From a virus: DNA of 22,677 nt. The translations under genes and the position numbers were made by a program. A model generated the notes under the pieces. The model worked only from the letters and a program-made list of their open reading frames with translations. It was not told where the DNA came from and ran no database searches. Shown piece after piece: positions 13,212 to 16,030 of the stretch (within the stretch, counting starts at the first letter, position 1; the number at the start of each line of letters is the position of its first letter). The stretch is taken from IMG/VR virus record IMGVR_UViG_3300010370_000266, positions 1 through 22,677 of that record. One strand, written 5' to 3'.

Positions 13212-13316
13212 ATGTACAACTATATCTGCTGCGCGGGGCTGATCCTCTTCGGGTTGGCCGGCACTCTCGCACCCCTGTTCATCGACGCAATGAAGCGCGG
13301 AGGCTGCGATGAGTGA
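13212..13316 (+). CDS. Micro membrane protein, 34 aa
   Basis: MYNYICCAGLILFGLAGTLA followed by PLFIDAMKRGGCDE: one transmembrane segment (about residues 5-24) and a short charged tail. AGGAG lies six bases before the ATG, and the stop overlaps the start of the next gene by eight bases, so translation is well supported despite the small size. First gene of the early unit. Function unknown; small phage membrane proteins at this place often act on the host envelope or on superinfection, but nothing here proves it. Confidence 0.65.
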   Translation: MYNYICCAGLILFGLAGTLAPLFIDAMKRGGCDE

Positions 13317-14163
13317 CCTCGTACGCGCCGGAACCCAGGCTCTCGAGGCGTACATCGCCGCGGGAGACATCGAGCGTCTCAACCCCGACCAGCGCGTGAG
13401 CCTGTACCGCGCGGTCTGCGAATCGCTCGGGCTGAACCCGCTCACGCAGCCGTTTCAGTACCTGCGGCTCAGCGGGAAGACCGTGCTCTACGCGACGAAG
13501 AGCTGCACCGAGCAGCTCCGCAACATTCACTCCGTCTCGGTGGTGCGAATGGAGAAGGAGGTGTTCGGCGACATCCTCGTCGTGACGGTCGCTGTCCGCG
13601 ACAAGGCGGGCCGCGAGGACATCGCGACGGGTTCGGTATGCCTCAAGGGCCTGGGAGGCGAGAACCTCTCGAATGCCTACATGAAGGCCGAGACGAAGGC
13701 GAAGCGCCGCGCGACCCTGTCGATCTGCGGCCTGGCGGTCCTCGACGAGAGCGAGACGGATTCGATCGCGGGAGCCGAGCGGCGCACGGTGCAGGAGGTC
13801 CACGTGGATCCCGAGCCTGCCGCTGCCGAGGCGGCGCGTCATATCCCGGACGCCGAGCCGTCGAAGCCGAAGCGCGGGAAGCCGAAGTCCGAGAAGCAGG
13901 AGGAGACGAAGCCGCTGCCGCCGGCGACCGAGGAGCACCTCGTCACCCCCGACGCGGACATCTCGGTCGTCCAGAACGCCTCTGGCCGCAAGGTCTGCCG
14001 CATCGACCGCCGAGACGCAGAGACGCTTGCCGTCCTCGACGAGAAGCTCGCCGGCATGATCGAGGCGATCCTCGCTTTCGGCGGGATCGCTCGTTGCACG
14101 GTGACCCGTTCCGCGGCGGGGAAGGCGATCGTGACCGACGTCGGGGAGGTGCGCGATGCATAG
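13309..14163 (+). CDS. Putative single-strand annealing recombinase
   Basis: 284 residues, GGAGG five bases upstream. Residues 22-150 carry LNPDQRVSLYRAVCESLGLNPLTQPFQYLRLSGKTVLYATKSCTEQLR and YMKAETKAKRRATLSICGLAVLDESE. The second block ('A.TKAkRRa..sicGL.vlDE.E') matches the conserved end of RecT/ERF-type annealing proteins, where the region contacts ssDNA. A K/E/P-rich linker (about 165-215) leads to a separate C-terminal domain (220-284). It would anneal complementary strands during recombination-dependent replication, with the nearby nucleases as partners. The exact subfamily is uncertain; another DNA-binding role is possible. Confidence 0.6.
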   Translation: MSDLVRAGTQALEAYIAAGDIERLNPDQRVSLYRAVCESLGLNPLTQPFQYLRLSGKTVLYATKSCTEQLRNIHSVSVVRMEKEVFGDILVVTVAVRDKAGREDIATGSVCLKGLGGENLSNAYMKAETKAKRRATLSICGLAVLDESETDSIAGAERRTVQEVHVDPEPAAAEAARHIPDAEPSKPKRGKPKSEKQEETKPLPPATEEHLVTPDADISVVQNASGRKVCRIDRRDAETLAVLDEKLAGMIEAILAFGGIARCTVTRSAAGKAIVTDVGEVRDA

Positions 14164-14530
14164 GCTCGGTTCGATCGACGAGCCAGGCGCGCAGAGCGTG
14201 CGTCGGATGCTCGGCATCCGTCCCGAGGATCCGCGCATATTCAAGCCGTATTCACTCGGAGAAGCGGTCGCGGCTGCGCGGATCATCTGCGGCGACGACG
14301 CGCTCGACGGCGGCGTGAGGATGCTCGTACCCGTCGGGCTCGCCTACGATCTGTGTCCGGCGCACCTGATGCCGGAGGCGGGTACGCTCGCCGCGTCGCT
14401 CTCGGTCAGCGTGAGACGGATCAGGCGTCACCGCCTGATCTGGGAGACGGTCGACCCTGCGCTGAGGTTCGCGCTGGTCAGGCGCGCCTGCCGGCTGATC
14501 CTCGCTTGGCGCGGCCGCGACTGCTACTGA
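14156..14530 (+). CDS. Hypothetical early protein
   Basis: 124 residues, eight-base overlap with the recombinase gene and a GGGGAGGT ribosome site five bases upstream, so it is clearly translated. Sequence is helical and basic at the end: GEAVAAARIICGDDALDGG, AASLSVSVRRIRRHRLIWETV, LRFALVRRACRLILAWRGR. A DNA-binding role is conceivable from the arginine-rich helices, but I recognise no family. It ends the first early unit at a terminator. Confidence 0.65.
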   Translation: MHRLGSIDEPGAQSVRRMLGIRPEDPRIFKPYSLGEAVAAARIICGDDALDGGVRMLVPVGLAYDLCPAHLMPEAGTLAASLSVSVRRIRRHRLIWETVDPALRFALVRRACRLILAWRGRDCY

Positions 14531-14581: not shown

Positions 14582-14787
14582 GCCGTTTCTTGAAATCCGA
14601 CCATTTTCCCTCTTGCGCTTCCCCCATTCCCCCCCCTAAAACCCCCCCCAGCACAAGTTGATCCTCTGATCCTTCGTGCTTCCATTCGTCTTCATCGCTT
14701 CTCTTCTTCTCCTGATCTCACTCCCGACAGGGATGCGTATCGCGTTTGTGCGCGGATGCGCGCGCGAGCGCGAGCCGATGCGTCCGC
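14582..14787 (+). other. Pyrimidine-rich intergenic region with long C-runs
   Basis: The longest gene-free stretch in the window. From about 14600 to 14730 the plus strand is almost all C and T. It includes C-runs of five, eight and eight bases (14621-14625, 14629-14636, 14642-14649) separated by ATT and TAAAA, so the minus strand can form stacked G-quadruplexes. Three GATGCG copies follow (around 14732, 14755 and 14777). No gene or clear promoter is visible. A replication or packaging role is possible but unproven. Confidence 0.6.
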
Positions 14788-15132
14788 ATGCCGCACGCAT
14801 GGACGTTTCCCGTTCTTTCCGTACGCAAGGTGGTCGACGGCGACACGCTCGACCTCGAGCTAGACCTCGGGTTCCACGTGCGCACGGTGCAGCGCGTACG
14901 GCTGATCGGGATCGACACGCCTGAGATTGCGTCGAAGGACGCGGGTGACCGCGAGCGCGCGAAGGCCGCGCGTGAGTTCGTGGCTGCCTGGATCGGCCGC
15001 CAGGAGAATCAGATCAGAGCGGAGACGACGAGGGACGACAAGTACGGCAGGATGCTCGCCGAGCTGCACGGCGACTCGTCGACCCTGACGGGGGATCTCC
15101 TCGAGGCTCGGCTCGCGAAGCGCTACAGGTGA
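14788..15132 (+). CDS. Staphylococcal (thermo)nuclease-like endonuclease
   Basis: 114 residues from ATG; an upstream in-frame TTG at 14746 would add a low-quality leader, and MPHAWTFPVLSVRKVVDGDT is the usual beginning of phage members. All SNase active-site residues are present: D17/D19/T20 in VVDGDT, R38 in RVRLIGIDTPE with D43, T44 and E46, and R88 in DKYGR (equivalent to R35, D40, T41, E43 and R87 of the staphylococcal enzyme). Ca-dependent phosphodiesterase expected to degrade or process DNA/RNA. No signal peptide, so it acts in the cytoplasm. No obvious ribosome site. Catalytically complete. Confidence 0.9.
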   Translation: MPHAWTFPVLSVRKVVDGDTLDLELDLGFHVRTVQRVRLIGIDTPEIASKDAGDRERAKAAREFVAAWIGRQENQIRAETTRDDKYGRMLAELHGDSSTLTGDLLEARLAKRYR

Positions 15133-15173: not shown

Positions 15174-15209
15174 TATGATCTCCGACCGCTGCAGGAGCAG
15201 CAGAAGGAG
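15174..15209 (+). promoter_or_regulatory. Early leader 2: TATGAT box and AGGA-loop hairpin
   Basis: TATGAT (15174-15179); no well-spaced -35 (a TCGACA lies 21 bases upstream). GCTGC-AGGA-GCAGC (15188-15201) forms a perfect 5-bp hairpin with AGGA as tetraloop, then AAGGAG (15204-15209) serves the gene at 15218. The 20 bases 15186-15205 recur at 16015-16034 with only two differences, and those two bases pair with each other, so the stem is conserved by compensation. Confidence 0.62.
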
Positions 15210-15217
15210 ACAGCACA

Positions 15218-15931
15218 ATGAAGGCGACTGAACTGGGTGAGTTCGTAGGCAGGGTGCGCCGCCTGTTCGGCGGCCCGATGGACGAGGAGCTGTTCGCGAT
15301 CGCGAAGGAGCGTATCGGCGGCCTGGCGGCCAAGCCGTGCGCCGAGGCGCTCGAAGAGTACGCGCTCGCGCACGGCGGCCCGAGGTCTCGGTTCATCCCG
15401 GCGAAGTTTTTGGAGATCTACTCCCGCCGCACCGAGCGGCTCGACGCCGAGGCCGAGCGGACGGCGCGGCTCGCCGCCAAGCGCCGCGCCGAGATCGGCG
15501 TCGGCCTCGAGGCCGAGCAGCACCGACGCGAGTGGGATTCGATCCGAAGGGACGTGGCCGCGCTCGACGACGACCGCCGCCGCGCGGCGGTCGATGTCAT
15601 GCGCCGAGCCGGGTGGAACTACCGCGGATCCGATCCGTCCGGGTGGAGCGACACGCAGGTGCTCGCCGTCCGCGACCTCGCGACCGGAGCGACCGTGATG
15701 GTGCGCGACCAGGACAGCGGCGAGTGGAACGTGCCTGTGGCGGCGCTCGAGTTCTGGACGCGCCTCGTTCCAAGGCCGTCGCAATCGCCTCTGGGAGCCT
15801 CGCTCCTCGAGGAGCGCCGTCGGCCGACTCCTACGACGGAACGGCTAGGCGAGCCTGTGCAGGCGGTTTCCGTCGACCGTGCAGCGGTAGCCTCGGCGGT
15901 GTTCGGCATGGACGAAGAGATTCCATTCTGA
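15218..15931 (+). CDS. Replication-type protein with an SSB-like C-terminal tip (DEEIPF)
   Basis: 237 residues, AAGGAG eight bases upstream. Residues 1-75 (GEFVGRVRRLFGGPMDEELFAIAKERI ... FIPAKFLEIYSRR) resemble the helical N-terminal domain of phage helicase loaders and primosomal proteins (G39P/lambda P-like 'F.P...l.EI'). Residues 76-135 are an Arg/Ala/Glu coiled coil, then a short beta region (TQVLAVRDLATGATVMVRDQ). After a disordered linker it ends GMDEEIPF, nearly the acidic tip of bacterial SSB (DDDIPF). I see no OB fold. In SSB this tip binds host replication and repair proteins, so the phage protein may recruit those or helicase. The loader assignment is tentative; the C-terminal tip is seen directly. 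Confidence 0.6.
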   Translation: MKATELGEFVGRVRRLFGGPMDEELFAIAKERIGGLAAKPCAEALEEYALAHGGPRSRFIPAKFLEIYSRRTERLDAEAERTARLAAKRRAEIGVGLEAEQHRREWDSIRRDVAALDDDRRRAAVDVMRRAGWNYRGSDPSGWSDTQVLAVRDLATGATVMVRDQDSGEWNVPVAALEFWTRLVPRPSQSPLGASLLEERRRPTPTTERLGEPVQAVSVDRAAVASAVFGMDEEIPF

Positions 15932-15977: not shown

Positions 15978-16030
15978 TGCAATTTGCAACGATGGTATCG
16001 GTATGATGGTTGAACCGCGGCAGGAGCCGC
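15978..16030 (+). promoter_or_regulatory. Early leader 3: palindrome, TATGAT box and AGGA-loop hairpin
   Basis: TGCAA-T-TTGCA (15978-15988) is a short inverted repeat. TATGAT follows at 16002-16007, and nine bases later GCGGC-AGGA-GCCGC (16017-16030) forms the same hairpin as leader 2, with its third pair changed from T-A to G-C. The ribosome site for the gene at 16047 is weak (GCGAGA). The surrounding DNA (about 15932-16050) is clearly lower in GC than the flanking genes. Confidence 0.6.

Follow-up and report, generated by a model that had tools for sequence, protein, structure and literature searches.

In bacterial genome maintenance, the C-terminal tip of SSB serves as the principal docking peptide, and the gene at positions 15218 to 15931 of virus record IMGVR_UViG_3300010370_000266 encodes a protein that ends in a closely similar peptide. 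This raises the question of what such a tip does on a phage protein that is not recognizable as an SSB. The window analyzed, i.e., the complete stretch of 22,677 nucleotides, represents a tailed phage, since this 22.7-kb virus record carries capsid and connector genes.

Gene and predicted fold of the tip-bearing protein

The open reading frame (plus strand, 237 amino acids, P0001) starts with an ATG that is preceded by an AAGGAG Shine-Dalgarno sequence, and its product ends in VFGMDEEIPF, confirming by ORF translation the SSB-like tip GMDEEIPF that had been noticed in the preliminary description. An end of the [DE][ILV]P[FWY] type occurs on no other ORF of the window. To judge from the sequence, 15218-15931 is a real coding sequence, because two phage orthologues (57-58% identity) display synonymous codon changes in the tip, the codons differing among the orthologues (GAAGAGATTCCATTC, GATGAAATCCCGTTC, and GACGAGATACCGTTC) with the residues EIPF unchanged.

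Upstream of the gene, a likely promoter -10 hexamer (TATGAT, 15174-15179, plus strand), resembling elements found 5' of the orthologues, is followed in the interval up to the start codon by a leader hairpin (GCTGC-AGGA-GCAGC, 15188-15201, plus strand) that covaries across relatives. Hairpins of this form have a 5-bp stem and a loop of 4-5 bases (e.g., GCGGC-AGGA-GCCGC), and the order of -10-like box, hairpin, and ribosome-binding site recurs at several early genes. The stem is 94% paired, with a covariation of 0.378 vs 0.087 for shuffled sequences and changes on both sides in four of the five stem pairs. A second hairpin of the same kind is located at 16017-16030 of the window, and others were encountered in the records of the orthologues, G001 (about 2669, 3497, and 6148 (-)) and G002 (about 610, 1438, and 30678), as well as 5' of relatives in L264, L273, L274, L276, L277, L278, L354, and L374.

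An AlphaFold2 model of the full protein, built from a three-sequence alignment, predicts helices at residues 3-17, 23-33, 41-51, 62-115 (long), 118-130, 145-156, and 176-183, and a beta-hairpin at 159-175. Together with the alignment, the model divides the plus-strand gene into a predicted four-helix N-terminal domain (residues 1-72, 15218-15433), which is present in all family members and holds the conserved stretch R-x-R-F-I-P-A-K-F; a predicted long helix or coiled coil (residues 73-117, 15434-15568); a second conserved domain composed of helices, the beta-hairpin, and a further helix (residues 118-187, 15569-15778); a poorly conserved, predicted disordered linker (residues 188-232, 15779-15913); and the SSB-Ct-like tip EEIPF (residues 233-237, 15914-15928). 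Mean pLDDT is 58.8, with values of 74-87 for residues 101-180 and about 50 for the N-terminal domain, of which the confidence was not raised when the N-terminal 78 residues were folded alone; the tail (residues 185-237) appears disordered, with pLDDT below 50 and low conservation.

The protein had been described as lacking a visible OB fold, and this was upheld: no SSB or OB profile matched, and the model contains two short strands only and no OB barrel, its N-terminal part being of low confidence. Moreover, no match was obtained in Pfam, PHROG, or NCBIfam, and no relative of known function was found among PDB sequences, by tblastn against phage and plasmid records, or in GTDB genome contigs. 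Foldseek searches of PDB and BFVD with these low-confidence models returned nothing significant; a hit to a viral 'replisome organizer' of 94 aa, at E 5.5, was too weak to be taken as evidence. Like the bacterial and phage SSB-Ct (DDDIPF), the protein thus has a disordered linker that leads into acidic residues and a terminal Ile-Pro-Phe, but unlike SSB it has no SSB or OB domain by profile or model, and its core is of a different family.

The helical domain, coiled coil, and linker proposed earlier are all predicted by AlphaFold2, whereas for the loader type suggested for the helical domain no sequence or fold search gave a link to any loader. The resemblance to SPP1 G39P-type loaders consists of a small, predicted helical N-terminal domain and a phage replication context; in contrast to those loaders, the protein has no Pfam or structure match (a Pfam scan of the protein at E up to 1 gave no loader family, the G39P-type PF11417 included), and no phage helicase gene was recognized. 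Only the pattern of four short helices is suggestive of a loader.

A protein family with an optional tip

Starting from the window protein, the family was extended to more than 20 members, which all come from environmental phages and are mostly encoded close to the same annealase-like gene. Direct scans of IMG/VR yielded the two orthologues, in G001 and G002; a tip-protein profile then identified 15 further members among ORFs around relatives of the annealase-like gene, in the same downstream position; and more, including L354 and L374, came from a final scan based on the enlarged alignment. Tip and linker are present in five members, ending in EEIPF (window), DEIPF (G001, G002, and L374), or VEIPF (L354), and EIPF is invariant although the L374 protein is only 27-29% identical to the other four tip-bearers. 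About twenty relatives have neither tip nor linker, their sequence ending directly behind the core at about residue 190, and the conserved core is present in tip-bearing and tipless members alike. Among the three nearest members (window, G001, and G002), identity amounts to 81% in the N-terminal domain, 56-59% in the second domain, 8-12 of 45 residues in the linker, and four of five residues in the tip. Within the linker (window, about 15836-15880), an arrangement of RL, five to seven residues, and VS recurs in most tip-bearers, and this stretch of an otherwise variable region may, by its sequence, be a second small motif.

Whether the tip could be a functionless relic or have arisen by chance was weighed against the frequency of such ends. 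In 12 related genomes, five of 2456 ORFs (>=60 aa) end in [DE][ILV]P[FWY], and all five are orthologues of the tip protein; composition predicts 0.13 such ends among the same ORFs, and 0.0095 for EIPF exactly. The tip thus occurs more often than by chance, because five ends were seen vs 0.13 expected, all on orthologues. Most relatives do lack the tip, as would be expected of a relic, but EIPF is identical in five members that share as little as 27% identity, and its codons differ synonymously, which makes this explanation extremely unlikely.

In an 18-member tree, constructed before L354 and L374 were known, all tip-bearers are on one side of a single branch; with these two included, two changes are needed, and two losses and two gains fit alike. 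None of the seven tipless genomes examined contains another tip-bearing ORF. Loss of the tip in homologues had been named beforehand as a refuting observation, and about twenty relatives indeed lack it, while selection has kept it in five diverged members. Since so many homologues do without it, the tip is an optional module outside the core function, and as most relatives are tipless, the core must do something independently of it. The tip is a genuine feature that is conserved in those members that have it, can be separated from the core, occurs on no other ORF of these genomes, and is located on a protein that by sequence is not of the SSB family. A new protein family carrying an optional SSB-like tail, with a proposed recruitment role, is thereby described, and a basic function can be proposed for it.

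Some relatives have the tip and others do not, as in an arms-race trait, and host SSB could face competition from a free tip, so that the protein could be a competitor or decoy that fills SSB-Ct pockets and blocks host repair or nuclease proteins (e.g., RecO, ExoI, or RecG). This appears improbable, as the tip is fused to a conserved core in a replication and recombination cassette, and a pure decoy would need no such core.

Neighbouring genes and candidate partners

Upstream of the tip-protein gene, all on the plus strand, are the annealase-like gene (13309-14163), a gene for a 124-aa protein (14156-14530) that is conserved in the same cassette by co-occurrence in related genomes, and a gene for a staphylococcal-nuclease-type endonuclease, identified by family match (14746-15132). 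The annealase-like, 124-aa, and tip-protein family genes are all present and close together in ten related genomes, and the nuclease gene joins them in the nearest phages; because of this synteny the cassette is assigned to DNA metabolism.

The annealase-like family has more than 500 relatives in IMG/VR (L258-L337 among them) and matches neither a PHROG nor a Pfam family. Its homologue in Campylobacter phage PP935708 is preceded by a RecE-like exonuclease and directly followed by an SSB (phrog_743) ending in DDDESLPF, which by sequence is the order of a recombination operon and means that in another phage this gene has a tip-bearing partner as its neighbour. Because of these neighbours, the family may be an undescribed single-strand annealing family, an assignment made from neighbourhood and not from a profile match.

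Recognized replication genes are scarce in these phages. With PF00436, no SSB was recognized in 21 records (window, G001, G002, and 18 further records of the group), and phrog_44 and phrog_18154 were not found in the window, G001, or G002; the search for phrog_112 (gp2.5) ran without a positive control and is not counted as an absence. Among 60 ORFs scanned from the near-complete G002 are genes for head, tail, terminase, methyltransferase, ParB-like, nuclease, and PD-DEXK proteins, whereas neither Pfam nor the best 25 PHROG families listed gave a polymerase, primase, helicase, or SSB. This gene content suggests that the phage depends on replication proteins of its host, since no SSB, helicase, primase, or polymerase was recognized in G002.

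With no SSB recognized in these phages, the tip protein could itself bind ssDNA in an unusual way, with no OB fold, and take the place of a phage SSB, its succession of domain, linker, and tip being that of SSB and its gene lying near annealase-like and nuclease genes. The AlphaFold2 model does not contain an OB fold, however, most relatives keep the core without the tip, and host SSB would be available anyway, which renders this replacement quite unlikely.

The same neighbourhood brings in the annealase as a candidate partner: the tail would mainly dock the phage annealase (13309-14163), the protein would replace its SSB partner, and both would anneal phage ssDNA. An annealase-like gene is near the tip-protein gene in nearly all members, and the arrangement in PP935708 points in the same direction, as do HK620, in which Sak4 needs the phage SSB tail NDYPPF and the tip is required for SSB-Sak4 cooperation (PMC5928155), and RecT/Red-beta, of which the activity depends on SSB C-termini (PMC10711431). 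The likeness to HK620 lies in a phage tip beside an annealase gene, but the HK620 tip sits on a true SSB. Moreover, tipless relatives keep the annealase-like gene without any tip-bearing protein, the identity of the annealase derives from neighbourhood, and in L374 no homologue was found in the stretch searched. Docking of the annealase as the main role is considered unlikely, and host proteins are favoured over the phage annealase as partners of the tip, because the phage itself does not seem to supply a replisome.

SSB-like tips on other phage proteins and the proposed role

A DEIPF-stop pattern was found in at least 120 stretches of IMG/VR, vs 6 stretches in a complete IMG/VR scan for a scrambled control with the same codons ordered FDEPI-stop, a strong enrichment of SSB-like tips at the ends of phage proteins. 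Among the matches listed, 77 tip-bearing ORFs include 11 that match SSB, and others match further ssDNA-binding families; the non-SSB proteins comprise five DNA helicases (phrog_16), two AEP-type primases, two Erf proteins, and two of another annealing protein, and nine ORFs belong to a family with an ExoX-like C-terminus (phrog_19042). With the second pattern, DDIPF, the matches listed include Sak4, a DnaB-type helicase end, and another ResIII helicase. The individual DEIPF or DDIPF ends are on helicases in L014, L028, L056, L085, and L160, primases in L012 and L057, Erf in L032 and L055, Sak4 in L159, and the DnaB-type protein in L173. The phrog_19042 proteins are about 275 aa long (L022, L023, L027, L029, L048, L073, L076, L082, and L084); all nine sampled members end in DEIPF, having been chosen by that end, and a profile comparison of this family with the annealase-like family gave nothing.

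In the literature covered by the search, no description of such tips on non-SSB phage proteins was found. The window protein belongs to this class, with its conserved EIPF, no SSB profile match, and a position in a DNA-metabolism cassette. It has the same terminal motif as the ResIII/DEAD helicases (phrog_16), AEP primase (phrog_21866), Erf, Sak4, and DnaB-type helicase, but those enzymes have recognizable catalytic or annealing domains, whereas its core matches no known family. A precedent for a tail on a non-SSB replication protein is the T7 gp4 helicase, of which the acidic C-terminal tail holds a replisome partner (PMC7231222); in contrast to the window phage, the partner is T7 polymerase, and T7 encodes its own SSB.

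The reading preferred here, held with about even confidence, is that of an early phage replication or recombination accessory protein, composed of a conserved core and an SSB-Ct-like recruitment tail. The core (four-helix domain, coiled coil, and small second domain) would perform the basic job, would sit either on a replication complex or on the DNA of the phage, and may dimerize, perhaps through the coiled coil. Docking of DnaG, PriA, chi, and ExoI to the SSB-Ct peptide is documented (PMC5872125), and by analogy the EIPF tip could occupy the SSB-Ct pocket of PriA, DnaG, RecO, RecG, or Pol III chi; the proteins bound would most likely be brought to phage DNA, wherever the core sits. The earlier suggestion that the tail draws SSB-binding proteins fits, by analogy, with the wider pattern of tips on non-SSB phage proteins. 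Recruitment is supported by the divergence of the linker before an EIPF that stays fixed in five members; against it, about twenty family members manage without the tip, and the N-terminal domain has no recognizable relative and a low-confidence model. The tail may be regarded as a lineage-specific, selected recruitment module on a probable replication or recombination accessory protein, because phage proteins end in SSB-like tips more often than the scrambled control predicts, non-SSB DNA enzymes among them.

As a more tentative generalization, it is possible that phages repeatedly graft SSB-Ct-like tips on unrelated replication and recombination proteins, from helicases, primases, and annealases to the new core family, thereby recruiting SSB-binding host proteins directly and bypassing host SSB, with the tip as an optional module that is gained or lost within the group of the window phage. 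If so, such grafting would offer phages a simple, general means of turning host replication and repair towards their own DNA, and defence systems that monitor SSBs could possibly target the grafted tips. Because orthologues with and without the tip occur naturally, its effect is open to direct comparison.
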